Shown one piece after another: positions 3,008 to 8,557 of a stretch of DNA of 64,000 nucleotides. The translations under genes and the position numbers were made by a program. This DNA comes from Thermoproteota archaeon (lineage in GTDB: Archaea > Korarchaeota > Korarchaeia > Korarchaeales > Korarchaeaceae), in assembly GCA_026986575.1 (NCBI GenBank), contig JALSOH010000006.1, positions 186,001-250,000 of the forward strand, in the 5' to 3' direction. The first letter of the stretch is position 1. The number at the start of each line of letters is the position of its first letter. The notes below the pieces were generated by a model. The model was not told where the DNA came from. It did no database searches and was given only the letters and a program-made list of their open reading frames with translations.

Positions 3008-4309
3008 TCATACGATGCTGACAACCTCACCGACCTCACCCGATCTCAGCCTGTCGTATAGGGCTGCCACTACAGGAGAGGCTCTAACCTCGTAGATCAC
3101 CTTCCTGTATATCTGATCTAGGTTTGCAGGGTTCTCCGGATCTCCCGGCGGGTAATCAACCCTCTTCTGCTTCGATACCTCTCCTCTAACCTCAACTATT
3201 GAAGGTTGTCTCTCGGGGAACTGCGTTGACAACTCCGGATTCACCACTACATTCACTTTCCTCTCTAGGGTCCTTACCCTAGAATCTCCGAGCCCTCTCT
3301 CTAGCTCGTCTAAACCTACTCTCCCGTAGATGAGGGCCAACGCCACCAAGTAGGGGAGGCTGAATCTAGCCTGATCCACGCTTTTCGGCCCCCTAATTCC
3401 CGCGACTCTCGCTGCCTCTTCGAATACCTCCACCCTGACTTCCCTCACCTCCTCCGGCCTCACCTCGTCACTCAACATTATCGCGGCCGTTAGCGCGGTG
3501 TGGGTGTGCCTGCATGTCGGGAAGAACTTGTAACCGTTCAGTAGTATGGCATAGTTCCATCCGGGGTCCAAGCCCTCCTCTAACCTGCATCCGGGAGCCA
3601 TGTTCTTGCAGAACCCTCTTTCATCCTCGAGGGCCCTTAGATTCGTTTTCATGCCATTCCTCGCCATTAGTGAGGAGGTAACTCCCAGAAAGGCGGCGTG
3701 ACCTGGGCTGAACGGTTTGATGGACGATCCCCCAGATATGAAGCCCCAGAGCCCTGAGGCATAATAAGAGGAGATCGCTAAAGCCTGGGAAGCCTCCTCC
3801 AAACTTAACCCCAAAACCCTCGACGCGGCAGCTGCAGCACCCAGAGACCCAGCAGTAGCGGTGGTGTGCCACTTGGAGTAATGATTCCTGTCGAAGGCCC
3901 TTCCAAACCTTGCAGCCACCTCATATCCGATAACCACGGACTCAAGCAGCTTCTCCCAGCTGACCCTCCCCTCCCCAAGCGCTATAGCGGCCGGAACAAT
4001 AACGCTGCCTGCATGGACGAAGCCCTGTCTCAACCAGTCGTCATACTCGAGTGAATGGATGGCAAAGCCGTTTACGAGAGCGGCCATCGATGGAGAAGAG
4101 CGCCACCAGCCTCCCAGAACTAGAGAGCCGTTATCGATTGGGTAGGCTAGAGAAGTGAACCTCTTTACCCTCTCCTCCCTCTCAAAGCCGAGTATACCCA
4201 CTCCAATGGAGTCTAGGAGGGCCTTTTTGGCCTCCTCCCTGACCTCCAACGGTAGAGAGGAGTAGTCCCAAGACCACACCTGTGACAGGATATCCACCAC
4301 TACCGGCAT
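3008..4309 (-). CDS. MmgE/PrpD family dehydratase or decarboxylase
   Basis: This 433-residue protein is full length for MmgE/PrpD, a family that includes 2-methylcitrate dehydratase (PrpD) and cis-aconitate decarboxylase. Family signatures are DSIGVGILG near residue 35, NGFAIHSLEYDDW with VHAGSVIVPAAIAL near residues 80-115, KPFSPGHAAFLG in the middle, and KFFPTCRHTHTALTAA, which holds the conserved Lys/His pocket. It is the last gene of a five-gene operon, 46 bases after the CitE-like lyase. Substrate cannot be read from sequence; the setting suggests a branched or unsaturated di- or tricarboxylic acid handled before or after CoA activation. A cis-aconitate decarboxylase (itaconate-forming) role is one option, methylcitrate dehydration another. 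Confidence 0.85.
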   Translation of the reverse strand: MPVVVDILSQVWSWDYSSLPLEVREEAKKALLDSIGVGILGFEREERVKRFTSLAYPIDNGSLVLGGWWRSSPSMAALVNGFAIHSLEYDDWLRQGFVHAGSVIVPAAIALGEGRVSWEKLLESVVIGYEVAARFGRAFDRNHYSKWHTTATAGSLGAAAAASRVLGLSLEEASQALAISSYYASGLWGFISGGSSIKPFSPGHAAFLGVTSSLMARNGMKTNLRALEDERGFCKNMAPGCRLEEGLDPGWNYAILLNGYKFFPTCRHTHTALTAAIMLSDEVRPEEVREVRVEVFEEAARVAGIRGPKSVDQARFSLPYLVALALIYGRVGLDELERGLGDSRVRTLERKVNVVVNPELSTQFPERQPSIVEVRGEVSKQKRVDYPPGDPENPANLDQIYRKVIYEVRASPVVAALYDRLRSGEVGEVVSIV

Positions 4310-4355
4310 CTCGCTACCTAGGAGGTCTACCTTATCAATTATGGGATCAGTCTAG

Positions 4356-5255
4356 TTAGGATTCCCGCCCTGATCTGGACTTGATCTCTCTCACTATTTC
4401 CAGCAGGGTTCTAGCCTGCTCGTAGTTCATTCGGTCTATCATCATTCCCCTATGAGAAGCCGCCCCTAGCCCCCTTCTAACCGCCTCCTCGTAAGCCTTG
4501 ACTATCTCCTCAGCCTCTCTAATCTCTTTTTCGCTTGGCGTGAACACCTCGTTGATTATCGGTATATGGGAGGGATGGATCGCATACTTCCCCTTATAGC
4601 CCAGCCTCCTAGCCAGGAGGGCTTGCCTCCTCACCCCCTCCCTGTCAATGATCAGCCCGAGGAATGGGGTGTCCAAGGCCGGGATTCTGGCAGCAGCGGA
4701 TGCGACGCTCACCTTAGACCTAGCATACAGGAGTTCGATCTCATCATCAGAGAGGTCGCTGACGCTTCTACCGAGGTCCCTCAAAAAGTCCCCCATGCCG
4801 AACGAGAGTGCGCAGATCCTATGCGAAGAGAGGGCTATATCGAGGGATCTCTCAACGCCCATCGCGCTTTCTACCAGCGGGATTATCCTGACCTCCTCCA
4901 GTCCTCTCTCCTCCTCTAGGCGCTGTAGCCGCTCCTCCAAGTGCTTAATGTCCTCCACTCTCTCAGTCTTGGGGAGCACGATCCCGTCCAGCCCCTTCGC
5001 CATTATGAACCCCAGATCTTCCTCAAGCATCCCTGTCGTGGACGAATTCACCCTGACGAACACCTCGCCACCGAATTTCCCCCTTTCTTCTTTCAGGAAC
5101 TCCCTCACAAGCCACCTAGCAGTCTCCTTCTCCCCTATAGGTACGGCATCCTCCATGCCCAGTACCACGACATCCGCTCCGCTCCTCAACGAGCTCAGCA
5201 TCAACCTCCAGCTATTGGCAGGTACGAAGAGCAAGGATCTGGCTAGAAAGGTCAT
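4356..5255 (-). CDS. HpcH/HpaI-CitE family CoA-ester lyase
   Basis: This 299-residue TIM-barrel lyase has the CitE/malyl-CoA lyase layout: SLLFVPANSW at the N-terminus (CoA and phosphate binding), the GMEDAVP motif after strand 2, PLVESAMGV supplying the metal-binding Glu, and SFGMGDFLRDLG supplying the metal-binding Asp. Relatives cleave citryl-, malyl-, methylmalyl- or citramalyl-CoA into acetyl-CoA or propionyl-CoA plus an oxoacid. Its ATG overlaps the stop of the SucD-like gene (ATGA), so the two are translationally coupled. The likely job is to cleave the CoA ester made by the upstream ligase subunits. Which ester is cleaved is not decidable here. Confidence 0.88.
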   Translation of the reverse strand: MTFLARSLLFVPANSWRLMLSSLRSGADVVVLGMEDAVPIGEKETARWLVREFLKEERGKFGGEVFVRVNSSTTGMLEEDLGFIMAKGLDGIVLPKTERVEDIKHLEERLQRLEEERGLEEVRIIPLVESAMGVERSLDIALSSHRICALSFGMGDFLRDLGRSVSDLSDDEIELLYARSKVSVASAAARIPALDTPFLGLIIDREGVRRQALLARRLGYKGKYAIHPSHIPIINEVFTPSEKEIREAEEIVKAYEEAVRRGLGAASHRGMMIDRMNYEQARTLLEIVREIKSRSGRES

Positions 5256-6142
5256 AACACATCCCTCAGCAGCTCGATTATATGCTTGGGCGACTCGGCC
5301 AACTTAACTCCCGCCTCCTTGAAGGCCCTGATCTTGCTCTCAGCCGATCCTCTATCGCCCACGACCATGGCGCTCGCGTGGGAGAACCTCATCCCCTTGG
5401 GAAGCATCCTCCCTGCCACGTAAGCTACCAAGGGCTTCGTGAACCCTCCGTTTGACACGAATTCAGCAGCTTCCTCCTCTTGAACTCCACCTATCTCGGC
5501 GAAAAGCACGACAGCATCCGTCTCTTCATCTTCCTCGAACATGGCCAGCAGCTCCGCCTCGGTCAGTCCCACCAGTGGTTCACTGCCAGTATGCACCGCG
5601 GTGGTAATCCCGAAGCCGGCCCTGCTTATGGCCCAAGAGGTGGTGGTCGTCTGCCCACCGCTCCTCGAGATAACACCCACCTTACCGGGGACGAAGGCCT
5701 CCTTGGCCAGCTCTAGGGACCCGCCCACCCATCCCATGACCGCCTTACTTGGGCTTATTACGCCGAAGGATCCAGGTCCCTGAACCCTCACGCCCCTCCC
5801 CCTAGCTAAAGCGAGTATCCTCATGGCGTCGTGCACGGGCACCCTCTCGGTCGGGATAAGCACATAGCTTATTCCGGCCTCTACGGCCTCAGTCACGGCC
5901 TCCAAGAGGTGAGCCGGTGGGACTAGAGTGATGGTCGCATCCACGCGCCCCACCTCTTCCAAGGCCTCCTTAACGGAATCGAAGACCGGTACCCCCCAGA
6001 CCCTCGATCCTCCCCTCCCGGGAGTCACCCCAGCAACTACTTTAGTTCCGTATTCGAGCATGTATCGGGTGGCGAACTCTCCTGTCCTCCCGGTTATCCT
6101 CTGAACCAGAACTCTTGTATTCTCGTCGATCAATATGACCAT
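5252..6142 (-). CDS. SucD-like acid-CoA ligase alpha subunit
   Basis: This 296-residue homologue of succinyl-CoA synthetase alpha begins with a CoA-binding Rossmann domain (MVILIDENTRVLVQRITGRTG, then the GVTPGRGG segment) and continues with the ligase domain (VGVISRSGGQTT). The phosphorylated catalytic His is retained at about residue 255 (FSHASAM, equivalent to GHAGA in SucD). ATG 6142 overlaps the stop of the preceding Fe-S gene (ATGA) and was chosen over upstream in-frame codons because the family begins here. Paralogues are malate-CoA ligase (MtkB) and citryl-CoA synthetase; pairing with a CitE-like lyase favours one of these over a Krebs-cycle role. Confidence 0.87.
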   Translation of the reverse strand: MVILIDENTRVLVQRITGRTGEFATRYMLEYGTKVVAGVTPGRGGSRVWGVPVFDSVKEALEEVGRVDATITLVPPAHLLEAVTEAVEAGISYVLIPTERVPVHDAMRILALARGRGVRVQGPGSFGVISPSKAVMGWVGGSLELAKEAFVPGKVGVISRSGGQTTTTSWAISRAGFGITTAVHTGSEPLVGLTEAELLAMFEEDEETDAVVLFAEIGGVQEEEAAEFVSNGGFTKPLVAYVAGRMLPKGMRFSHASAMVVGDRGSAESKIRAFKEAGVKLAESPKHIIELLRDVL

Positions 6143-6399
6143 CAGACCACCTCCATCGGCACCCTTACCTCGATCACGCCGCTCCCATACCACTGGCAGT
6201 AGATCTCGCAGGCGAGGCACTCATTATCTATCCTCACGGCTTCCTGAGGGGAAACAGCTAACGCTGGCTTACCGTCCTCTATCTTCAGTATGTTCCGGCC
6301 GTATAGTCTGCAGGCCTTCACGCAGGCGAAACCGCAGTCCGGGGCCACACATCCATCTAAATTTATTATCACTTCGGCCGTTCTAGTCCTGAACCTCAT
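6142..6399 (-). CDS. Small ferredoxin-like Fe-S protein
   Basis: The predicted protein has 85 residues and seven cysteines: C17, C22, C26 and C30 (spacing x4, x3, x3) and C61, C64 and C68 (x2, x3). The arrangement resembles a divergent two-cluster ferredoxin that lacks one ligand in the second motif. ATG 6399 is preceded by GGAGGGAG at good distance, so it is preferred to ATG 6426. The gene sits inside the operon between the beta and alpha ligase subunits, overlapping both neighbours (17 bases and ATGA). A ferredoxin between two CoA-ligase subunits is unusual. It may be a redox partner of an unlinked enzyme, a structural subunit, or a redox sensor for the ligase. Confidence 0.72.
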   Translation of the reverse strand: MRFRTRTAEVIINLDGCVAPDCGFACVKACRLYGRNILKIEDGKPALAVSPQEAVRIDNECLACEIYCQWYGSGVIEVRVPMEVV

Positions 6400-7642
6400 T
6401 TCTCTCCCTCCTATATTCCTCAACAAGCTCCAGGACCCTATCCGCTATGTAATCGGTCTCATAGATGTAGTCCCTGCCGTAGAGCTCGAACCTTATCGGG
6501 AGGTCTCTAACCCCTCTCCTGATTATCTCGTGGCTCTCCTCCTCCTTGTTTCCAGCAAGCAGGATTACTGCCGGGAATCCCGGCCTATCCCTCAGCATCT
6601 CGTTGAATGCCTTCACAATGGCGTGAGCGTGGTGCCACTGCTCCTGACTCGCCAGAACGCTCCCCATCATCACGTACCCCTCTATCCCCGGAATGGAGAG
6701 GATCGTCCTGATCACCCTGTAGACCTTAGATGCCGGTGGGTCACCGCTTGTATCAGAGTAATTGGCTAGTTTAAGCCCCCTCCTTATCAGCGCATCCGCT
6801 GCCAGCATCGCGCCTCCTCCGCCTATCCCGTGGAATCCTATGTAACCCTCGGACGCCTCTGTTGTCAGCTGGATGAAGTACCCCGTCCCCCTCGGATCGG
6901 CATCGTCCCAGTACCACATCCTCCTCTCCAGATCGGTCGGCTCTCTGTTCAGGTCCTTGGGGACCTCCACCTCGACATCGGGGTGCCTGAAGAGCGCGTG
7001 ATCATCGAGGTCTATCCTCGCATCCAGTGCCACCAAGCCCTCGTCCGTAAGGGCGAGGGGATTCACCTCTACACTCCTAGCGTCATATTCCACGAAAATG
7101 TCGTAGAGCTTCAGTGCGACGTCTACCGCCTCGCTTGGCATCCCCACTTGAGAGAACTCCTCCTCTACTATCTCCCTTCCCAATCCGTCCAGGTAGTCCA
7201 CAGGTATTCTGGCCACACCCTCCGACCTCTCCTCGATGCCCGTACCGCCGAAGGGGCTGGCCAGCAGCATGGGAGATCTGAACCTCATTGAATCGTTTAT
7301 AACGACGCTGAGGAACAGCTCAGCCCTCACATCTATCCTTCTCTCGACGAGGACTTTCTTGGGCCTGAATCCCCTGAAGTAGGAGGAAAGCATCTCCTCA
7401 GCAGCCAGGCGAGCCTCTTCCGGCGATGATGCAAACCTGACGCCGCCCACATCGTGCCTTCCAGTGAAGGGAAGCTGTGCTTTCACTACAACACTGCCCT
7501 CCAGCTTTCTAGCTATTGCCTCGGCTTCTTTCGGATCAGAGGCTATTTCTCCATCCGGTACAACTATTCCGTGATCCCTCAATATCCTCTTGGACTGATA
7601 CTCGAGGAGCTTGGCCCTAGTATCACCCAGCGATCCCTTCAC
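6383..7642 (-). CDS. SucC-like acid-CoA ligase beta subunit (ATP-grasp)
   Basis: The 419 residues are a little longer than SucC. The N-terminal ATP-grasp starts LLEYQSKRILRDHGI; the lysine in VVVKAQ and the metal site VEVNPLAL (about residues 200-207) match the family. The C-terminal ligase/CoA domain is recognisable (GYIGFHGIGGGGAMLA, LANYSDTSGDPP) but divergent: the usual NIFGGI loop is replaced by VMMGSVLASQEQ, so the substrate is probably not succinate. The start is GTG 7642, first gene of the operon. The promoter should lie in the 104-base gap shared with the divergent hepT gene. Predicted reaction: acid + ATP + CoA to acyl-CoA, together with the alpha subunit. Confidence 0.83.
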   Translation of the reverse strand: MKGSLGDTRAKLLEYQSKRILRDHGIVVPDGEIASDPKEAEAIARKLEGSVVVKAQLPFTGRHDVGGVRFASSPEEARLAAEEMLSSYFRGFRPKKVLVERRIDVRAELFLSVVINDSMRFRSPMLLASPFGGTGIEERSEGVARIPVDYLDGLGREIVEEEFSQVGMPSEAVDVALKLYDIFVEYDARSVEVNPLALTDEGLVALDARIDLDDHALFRHPDVEVEVPKDLNREPTDLERRMWYWDDADPRGTGYFIQLTTEASEGYIGFHGIGGGGAMLAADALIRRGLKLANYSDTSGDPPASKVYRVIRTILSIPGIEGYVMMGSVLASQEQWHHAHAIVKAFNEMLRDRPGFPAVILLAGNKEEESHEIIRRGVRDLPIRFELYGRDYIYETDYIADRVLELVEEYRRERNEVQD

Positions 7643-7715
7643 CGATACGATAAATTGTTTCCTCTCTTCCTCCGTTGGAGACGCTGGGGATCCTTAGTAT
7701 TACATCGTCAGCTCA

Positions 7716-7725
7716 CTTTAATTTT
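7716..7725 (+). promoter_or_regulatory. TATA box for the HEPN/MNT pair
   Basis: CTTTAATTTT is centred about 27 bases upstream of ATG 7747, which would place the transcription start at the A of the start codon. This supports a leaderless mRNA and the choice of ATG 7747 over an upstream in-frame codon. Confidence 0.5.
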
Positions 7726-7746
7726 GGGTACCCGTCCTTCTATCCG

Positions 7747-8157
7747 ATGGATGAAAGCAGGCTTGCTAGATACAGAGAAAAAATGGAATACGTTATAGAT
7801 GCATTGGAATCTATCAGGGAACCGAGAACTCAACTTGAGCTGTCTGGTGTGTTCTATAACCTCATAACCTCTATAGAGGCTTCTATGGATCTAATAGCGA
7901 TGCTTCTAAGGGATTTGGGGGAAAGGATAGAAGATGACTACACAAATGTGGATAAGCTTGTGAAATTGGGTATCTTAAGTGATGAATTGGGAGAGAGTCT
8001 GAAAAAGTGCAACGGGCTGAGAAACTGGTTGGTTCACAGGTATAACAGAGTAGATCCTGAACTGGTGATGGAGTCTGTGGAGGAGGTGAAAGAGACGCTG
8101 TACTCCCTGCTGAGGAGACTGGAGGAGGTGCTAAATGAGATCGCTGGATCAGATTAG
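7747..8157 (+). CDS. hepT: HepT-type HEPN toxin (RNase)
   Basis: This 136-residue all-helical protein is of the DUF86/HepT family. The R-x4-H-x-Y active site is intact as RNWLVHRY near residue 97. The N-terminal helix (MDESRLARYREKMEYV) and the central LSGVFYNLITSIEASMDL helix match the family. HepT proteins cleave tRNA or mRNA and are inactivated by the neighbouring MNT enzyme, which AMPylates the tyrosine of the motif. The gene overlaps the partner by 23 bases. ATG 7747 is the start, in line with the TATA position. It is divergent from the CoA-ligase operon. A decayed relative lies at 1.3-2.3 kb. Confidence 0.87.
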   Translation: MDESRLARYREKMEYVIDALESIREPRTQLELSGVFYNLITSIEASMDLIAMLLRDLGERIEDDYTNVDKLVKLGILSDELGESLKKCNGLRNWLVHRYNRVDPELVMESVEEVKETLYSLLRRLEEVLNEIAGSD

Positions 8158-8557
8158 GAGAGATCTGAGGTTTCTCTCTTCGTACGAAGTGGTCTTATAC
8201 GGCTCCTATGTTACAGGAGAGTACACAAGGGAGTCCGACATAGATGTGGCAGTCATCACGCGAGAGAAGGACAGGAACAGGAACTTCAAGATCCAGCTCG
8301 ATATCTGGGGAAAGGTGCCCTCGCCCATATATGATGTGAGGGTGTTCGAACTGTTACCGATAAGGGTCAAGGCCTCGGTGATCGGCGGGTACTTGGTCCT
8401 CTTCGGAAGTGAGCCCGATATTTCGGAGTACTTCTACAGCTGGAGGAAGACATGGGAAGAGGTTAGAAGGAGAATAGAGCCCATGTCCATAGAGGAGAAG
8501 ATTAAGGCGGTTAGGAGAAGGAAGAAGATCCTGAAAACTATCACTAGACCCGAGTAG
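8135..8557 (+). CDS. mntA: MNT-type nucleotidyltransferase antitoxin
   Basis: The 140-residue protein has the minimal nucleotidyltransferase signature GSYVTGEYTRESDIDVAV (residues about 23-40), containing the GS motif and the paired Asp metal ligands. The basic C-terminal tail follows a helix-rich region. Family members transfer AMP from ATP to the HepT active-site tyrosine and so neutralise it. It overlaps hepT by 23 bases, implying translational coupling. Both active-site motifs are intact, so this module should be functional. Confidence 0.87.
   Translation: MRSLDQIRRDLRFLSSYEVVLYGSYVTGEYTRESDIDVAVITREKDRNRNFKIQLDIWGKVPSPIYDVRVFELLPIRVKASVIGGYLVLFGSEPDISEYFYSWRKTWEEVRRRIEPMSIEEKIKAVRRRKKILKTITRPE

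Follow-up and report, generated by a model that had tools for sequence, protein, structure and literature searches.

A CoA ligase, ferredoxin and CitE-type lyase module conserved in archaea and bacteria and its possible role in the cleavage of citramalate

A window of 64,000 nucleotides (contig JALSOH010000006.1) was analysed from an archaeal genome of 1.91 Mb, which appears to be that of a Korarchaeum-type archaeon. At positions 3008-7642 it carries five minus-strand genes that encode a SucC-like protein, a ferredoxin-like protein, a SucD-like protein, a CitE-like protein and a member of the MmgE/PrpD family. The first four of these genes form a real module that is widely conserved as a unit across two domains of life. 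The best explanation for the module, to which we give a probability a little short of even, is that it activates a substituted malate, for which (S)-citramalate is the likeliest candidate, and cleaves it to acetyl-coenzyme A (acetyl-CoA) and pyruvate. More tentatively, it may belong to an undescribed pathway by which archaea and bacteria oxidise C5 diacids of the methylsuccinate type anaerobically; this pathway would combine an ATP-dependent citramalyl-CoA synthetase, of which a dicluster ferredoxin is an obligate subunit, with a CitE-type lyase. Neither the module nor such a pathway was found described in the open-access literature searched, where citramalate-activating CoA ligases receive one passing mention only.

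Successive overlaps of 17, 1 and 4 nt link the first four genes, and the MmgE/PrpD gene is separated from the CitE-like gene by a gap of 46 nt (Table 1). Domain families were assigned with Pfam and NCBIfam profiles, which agree with the five families that a preliminary description, made from the letters of the window, had named for this run of genes; all five lie at the positions and on the strand given there. Measured against the equivalog models of NCBIfam, the operon proteins fell short of the cut-offs for succinate-CoA ligase, malate-CoA ligase, citE, RipC and PrpD.

Among 394 archaeal relatives the ligase is present in 11 (eight of the 16 belonging to the genus, plus three from elsewhere in the class or phylum), and the core gene order is maintained in all 11; one genome of the same genus, a single contig of 1,590,757 bases (G009), is without the cluster. 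Among the GTDB representatives scanned, 43 loci were recovered, from Korarchaeia-type archaea, Archaeoglobi, Nitrososphaeria, Geothermarchaeota, Methanomassiliicoccales, Desulfobacterota, Myxococcota-type bacteria, Chloroflexota and Syntrophomonadaceae, and a sample of one Chloroflexota class was positive in 8/393 cases. This recurrence places the association far from chance. The order of SucC-like, ferredoxin-like, SucD-like and CitE-like genes is preserved across these loci, and a Cys-rich ferredoxin-like open reading frame lies between the two ligase genes in 53/53 loci that hold both, a count in which some genomes are represented twice. The same groups were recovered in the ligase tree and in the lyase tree and therefore the two genes travel together. 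The preliminary description had treated all five genes as one unit and had considered an archaeal route; the four-gene core is indeed conserved together in related genomes, the PrpD gene is variable, and the presence of the module in bacterial lineages removes the archaeal restriction.

The beta-subunit tree of the ligase included as references SucC (among them PDB 3ufx and 1euc), MtkA from annotated plasmids, ATP-citrate lyase (ACL) and CcsA (PDB 6hxq). The 41 beta subunits of the module form one exclusive clade with a support of 100/100 and the 27 alpha subunits form another (100/99); the module ligase is separate from CcsA, from ACL and from SucCD, and MtkA and MtkB are placed on the SucC/SucD side of the two trees. 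It had been remarked in the preliminary description that the C-terminal loop of the SucC-like protein differs from that of succinate enzymes, which is right, as this part of the protein matches Citrate_bind (PF16114) and not Ligase_CoA, and the trees likewise give no grouping with succinyl-CoA synthetase (SCS). In the alignment of beta subunits an insert, PTxxE...DxDxRG, and a GNPPxxK motif are common to the module, CcsA and ACL and are not found in SucC, and (S/N)QEQWHH in the module replaces the SucC or citrate loop. An Arg that is kept by all SucC, MtkA, ACL and CcsA sequences covering the position is lost in the module, where (S/N)QEQWHH and LLAGNKE replace the citrate-loop Asn/Thr stretch and this Arg. 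From the structures of ACLY and SCS we take these rebuilt residues to be the acid-binding (citrate-binding) site. The AlphaFold model of the beta subunit (predicted local distance difference test, pLDDT, 87) matched SCS beta best, followed by CcsA and ACL. The proteins have the ATP-grasp domain and the phospho-His loop of SucCD-type ligases, and the active-site phospho-His of the SucD-like subunit is retained as SHASA in 44 sequences. Because the phospho-His loop is kept and the acid-binding region is rebuilt, it is very likely that the module protein is active as a CoA ligase and has an acid specificity of its own. Judged from sequence, it is an undescribed clade of the SCS/ACL superfamily working within an otherwise familiar type of pathway, and would be a new addition to the small textbook set of ADP-forming CoA ligases. 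The SucD-like protein of the window has an Arg near positions 6090-6105 (minus strand) at an otherwise invariant Gly of the CoA-site motif (QRITGRTG versus QGITG in ~50 relatives), which reflects either a fault in the assembly or a mutation with the potential to weaken the enzyme. In archaea of ~1 Mb (L078-L088, family f22 and others) another clade of SucC-like proteins was seen, with a SucD neighbour and strong Citrate_bind matches (41 to 108 bits); it lies near CcsA but outside it and is possibly another uncharacterised CoA ligase.

The small protein encoded between the two ligase genes was assigned to no Pfam family in the Pfam scan, and a homologue (L068) matched Fer4_7 with E = 1.7e-5, just under the curated cut-off. 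Two motifs supply the eight ligand positions of a predicted 2[4Fe-4S] ferredoxin, which in the window protein are filled by seven Cys, as counted in the preliminary description, and one Asp. When the fourth position of motif I and the opening position of motif II are read as a pair, 31 sequences have C/D, 8 have D/C and 8 have C/C, and none has D/D. Six further sequences are unassigned or degenerate at these two positions, part of motif II is lost in L050 and L059, and four Desulfohalobiaceae sequences have Gly at the expected first ligand of motif II. Both of these variable ligands bind one and the same cluster in a standard 2[4Fe-4S] ferredoxin. Since they are never both Asp, that cluster would retain three or more Cys and no more than one Asp. 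The model of the protein has a pLDDT of 90 and gave only weak matches in the fold search (E at or above 0.14), to ferredoxin-type domains, for example those of archaeal RNA polymerase subunit D and oxalate oxidoreductase. As its gene is embedded between the two ligase genes, the ferredoxin is probably a stoichiometric partner of the ligase with a structural or redox-gating role. The ligase is coupled to the Fe-S protein in every locus checked, and we know of no such partner in succinyl-CoA synthetase, malate-CoA ligase or citryl-CoA synthetase.

The lyase belongs to the CitE/HpcH-HpaI superfamily, with an HpcH_HpaI score of 140.7 bits against a curated cut-off of 25. Its NCBIfam scores are far below the cut-offs for citE (a score of 196 bits) and RipC (155.7 of 375 bits), and it also missed that of the halo Mcl family (84.5 of 500 bits). 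The lyases of the module, including that of the window, form a core clade (100/98). Mcl and RipC form a group of their own (98/94) away from the module lyases, in a tree whose backbone is weak, and CLYBL and the L104-type lyases fall on the same side as the module lyases, a side that is itself weakly supported.

The genes beside the core give an indication of the steps that may precede activation. Flavoproteins of PF00890 (SdhA/FrdA, TfrA or flavocytochrome type) are present in 14 loci and FrdB/TfrB in five, and in a locus of the same phylum (L044) both lie directly upstream of the core. Fumarase alpha and beta genes are found in L040, L060, L064 and L182. The fumarase alpha proteins of L040, L060 and L064 form one clade (100/100) apart from the housekeeping fumarases. 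The Syntrophomonadaceae genome among them has its second fumarase on the housekeeping side (399.8 versus 241.8 bits); a separate housekeeping fumarase is encoded in the L060 genome. Class I fumarase is present in 7/7 module-bearing genomes tested and in the window genome, which also encodes its own separate SucCD, SdhA and SdhB outside the cluster. Diacid transporters are among the neighbours of the module as well.

MmgE/PrpD genes occur in 24 loci and come from several unrelated PrpD lineages whose pockets differ, and wherever a fumarase gene adjoins the core, the stretch examined holds no full PrpD. PrpD is not a fixed part of the module, as its copies in the different loci are polyphyletic and in some loci the dedicated fumarase paralogue takes its place. 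The window protein has both MmgE/PrpD domains and the carboxylate-binding His/Lys residues, and its aligned site pattern, HEHYHKK, includes the catalytic His/Tyr pair. A two-base mechanism with His and Tyr is reported for iminodisuccinate epimerase and methylsuccinate isomerase, and a one-base mechanism has been proposed for cis-aconitate decarboxylase (PMC12290011). The decarboxylase CAD (7br9) has Ile at the Tyr position, and the Tyr kept in the window protein therefore favours an isomerase over an itaconate-forming enzyme; one residue fewer separates this Tyr from the next His than in the references, so the alignment near it is to be read with care. The PrpD tree was made without a methylsuccinate isomerase reference; a Cupriavidus plasmid region (L103) considered as one turned out not to be that cluster.

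In the scheme that we propose, a substituted succinate would be converted to a substituted fumarate, then to a substituted malate and its CoA ester, and finally to acetyl-CoA and a 2-oxoacid. The ADP-forming ligase would use ATP, the phospho-His of its SucD-like subunit and CoA to form the thioester of a 2-hydroxy-1,4-dicarboxylate, which the CitE-type lyase would split in a retro-Claisen reaction. For C5 acids the route would run from (R)/(S)-methylsuccinate through mesaconate, (S)-citramalate and (S)-citramalyl-CoA to acetyl-CoA and pyruvate. In the window organism the MmgE/PrpD protein may convert methylsuccinate, or a diacid related to it, into the stereoisomer that can be used, and oxidation and hydration would fall to the succinate dehydrogenase and the class I fumarase that the genome encodes outside the cluster; other lineages would use their own fumarate reductase (Frd)-type flavoprotein and the dedicated fumarase paralogue within the cluster. 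Because this paralogue is distinct from the housekeeping fumarase, the substrate that is hydrated would not be plain fumarate. The substituent is probably not hydrogen, since a dedicated hydratase stands beside a housekeeping fumarase and an isomerase-type PrpD needs a stereocentre, and the simplest case is a methyl group, that is, methylsuccinate, mesaconate and citramalate. The preliminary description had proposed the ATP-dependent cleavage of a di- or tricarboxylate; of this, the conserved unit of ATP-dependent ligase and CitE-type lyase is supported and an itaconate-forming PrpD is disfavoured. More confidence attaches to this core chemistry than to the acid itself, for which malate and citrate are also candidates. 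Many oxygen-avoiding archaea and bacteria probably split branched C4/C5 diacids (such as methylsuccinate or citramalate) by means of the module, and the C5 route, if true, would provide an anaerobic route for methylsuccinate and citramalate. With so few genes, apparently soluble proteins and several thermophiles among the sources, the question lends itself to a direct test.

By the tests made, the module would work like MtkAB-Mcl or CcsAB-Ccl while being a member of neither. MtkAB and Mcl of the serine cycle likewise have two genes for a SucCD-like ligase beside a gene for a CitE-superfamily lyase, and they combine ATP-driven activation with retro-Claisen cleavage. They differ in that MtkA and MtkB lie inside the SucCD clade, Mcl lies apart from the module lyases, no ferredoxin is present and the other neighbours are not the same. 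The beta-subunit insert and GNPPxxK motif are shared with CcsAB-Ccl and ATP-citrate lyase, which also carry out an ATP-dependent split, in their case of a tricarboxylate, but the module ligase is a separate clade without the citrate-loop residues. The partner of CcsAB is a citrate-synthase-type lyase, whereas that of the module ligase is of the CitE type. A methylaspartate-type cluster on a Mesorhizobium plasmid (L104) also brings together a class I fumarase, CoA activation and a CoA-ester lyase, and we would count it as a known parallel in favour of a C5 substrate; it differs in using a CoA-transferase for activation, in having no ferredoxin and in that methylaspartate ammonia-lyase supplies the mesaconate. 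The Ict-Ich-Ccl-Mcd-Msi cluster for itaconate and methylsuccinate (PMC12290011) also has a CitE-type citramalyl-CoA lyase with an MmgE/PrpD protein and ends in acetyl-CoA and pyruvate. It is bacterial and relies on CoA-transferase activation and an acyl-CoA dehydrogenase, whereas the module has an ATP-dependent ligase, an Fe-S protein and Frd-type flavoproteins and is found in lineages of anaerobes.

Several observations weigh against citramalate as the substrate. No gene in the loci names citramalate directly, and nothing shows that the core needs a PrpD gene. In Desulfohalobiaceae the module is flanked by a LarA-like malate racemase homologue and a tripartite ATP-independent periplasmic (TRAP) transporter (L070, L071) and by oxaloacetate decarboxylase subunits (L062, L070, L071), genes that suit malate or citrate better. 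Methylmalonyl-CoA mutase and a true SucCD adjoin the module in L040, and in Korarchaeum (G000-G015) citrate synthase is present in 8/8 cluster-bearing and 1/8 cluster-free genomes, a co-occurrence that follows the phylogeny (SdhA tree) and is thus confounded. Methylaspartate ammonia-lyase was not found over the cut-off in 29 genomes and is absent from the Korarchaeum genomes; glutamate or methylaspartate was rejected as a source for this reason.

If malate were the substrate, L-malate would be converted through malyl-CoA to acetyl-CoA and glyoxylate, with PrpD, or LarA in Desulfohalobiaceae, racemising malate. The Desulfohalobiaceae LarA matches the malate racemase LarAH6 best (258 bits, below the cut-off), with TRAP DctPQM genes adjoining the module; fumarase and Frd neighbours fit C4 acids too, and in L058 an aldehyde-ferredoxin oxidoreductase and a tartronate-semialdehyde-reductase-like gene could handle glyoxylate. 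This route is nevertheless unlikely, as the ligase falls outside MtkAB and the lyase outside the Mcl group, the serine-glyoxylate aminotransferase and glycerate dehydrogenase neighbours of real MtkAB-Mcl clusters are missing, the fumarase paralogue beside a housekeeping enzyme argues against plain fumarate or malate, and succinate and fumarate offer an isomerase no stereocentre. Somewhat less likely again is that larger 2- or 3-substituted succinates (alkyl- or carboxyalkyl-), depending on the lineage, are the substrates. Lineages may differ in this respect because some bacterial loci, of Desulfobacterota and Myxococcota type, carry up to three PrpD subfamilies together with a hydantoinase-like amidohydrolase, GntR and Liv ABC transporter genes, of which the PrpD copies, amidohydrolase and transporters would prepare the substrate, and the PrpD pockets vary from lineage to lineage; no alkylsuccinate synthase was seen beside the module, however, and the glycyl radical enzyme of L040 is of the PFL2/hydroxyproline-dehydratase type.

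A citrate or tricarballylate route, in which the ligase makes citryl-CoA and the CitE-type lyase releases acetyl-CoA and oxaloacetate as a third type of ATP-dependent citrate cleavage, would account for the Citrate_bind match, the CcsA-like insert and GNPPxxK motif, the oxaloacetate decarboxylase genes of Desulfohalobiaceae and the citrate synthase distribution in Korarchaeum. We regard it as improbable given that the ligase family is separate from CcsA and ACL and that the conserved Arg and citrate-loop Asn/Thr are replaced. The preliminary description had also raised an itaconate version, in which PrpD would decarboxylate cis-aconitate to itaconate before activation and cleavage. The window PrpD does match IRG1-type structures, but it has the His/Tyr pair and not the decarboxylase pattern, and the best IRG1 match is a Bacillus subtilis protein that has been argued not to be a decarboxylase (PMC12290011); with no itaconyl-CoA hydratase present and many module loci lacking PrpD, this version is very improbable. 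Lowest of all stands an ordinary succinyl-CoA synthetase with unrelated neighbours, which has the likeness in fold and domains to SucCD in its favour and which we rejected on the trees, the synteny with conserved lyase and ferredoxin partners, and the separate canonical SucC elsewhere in the genome (35% identical to the cluster protein).

The features of the operon are listed in Table 1. The GTG start of the SucC-like gene is uncertain, and for the SucD-like gene a start at the ATG at 6142 agrees more closely with the homologues than does the extended open reading frame from 6220.

Table 1. Genes of the minus-strand operon, in order of transcription, with the evidence for each assignment
Feature	Position	Strand	Evidence
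SucC-like (beta, ATP-grasp) CoA-ligase subunit of an undescribed clade	6383-7642	-	ATP-grasp_2 135 bits, Citrate_bind 34 bits
Small dicluster ferredoxin-like protein, 85 aa	6142-6399	-	Ligand pattern; position between ligase genes
SucD-like (alpha, CoA-binding, phospho-His) subunit of the same ligase	5252-6142	-	CoA_binding 73 bits, Succ_CoA_lig 43 bits
CitE-like (HpcH/HpaI) CoA-ester lyase	4356-5255	-	HpcH_HpaI 140.7 bits
MmgE/PrpD protein, predicted 1,4-dicarboxylate isomerase/epimerase or hydratase	3008-4309	-	MmgE_PrpD_N 180 bits, MmgE_PrpD_C 112 bits

Some further genes were noted in other genomes. In Dehalococcoides sp. JdFR-54 (L040/L179) the module is accompanied by a PFL2-type glycyl radical enzyme and its activase, hydroxymethylglutaryl-CoA (HMG-CoA) lyase and ScpC. 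A DUF1847 protein lies beside the module in Archaeoglobi and in L059 and L060, and a protein of 288 aa with no Pfam or NCBIfam match does so in Archaeoglobi and in L040 (for both, e.g. L038 7055-8578). Aldehyde-ferredoxin-oxidoreductase homologues are near the module in L054, L058, L061, L042 and L047. Short citrate-synthase-like proteins of 236-272 aa, encoded beside a CaiB CoA-transferase or a Liv ABC transporter in L128 (G026) and L130 (G027), are perhaps a parallel system of the citryl-CoA-lyase type. In the window itself both flanks of the operon (7675-8557 and 1624-2144) hold small gene pairs that by eye resemble HEPN/nucleotidyltransferase toxin-antitoxin genes.

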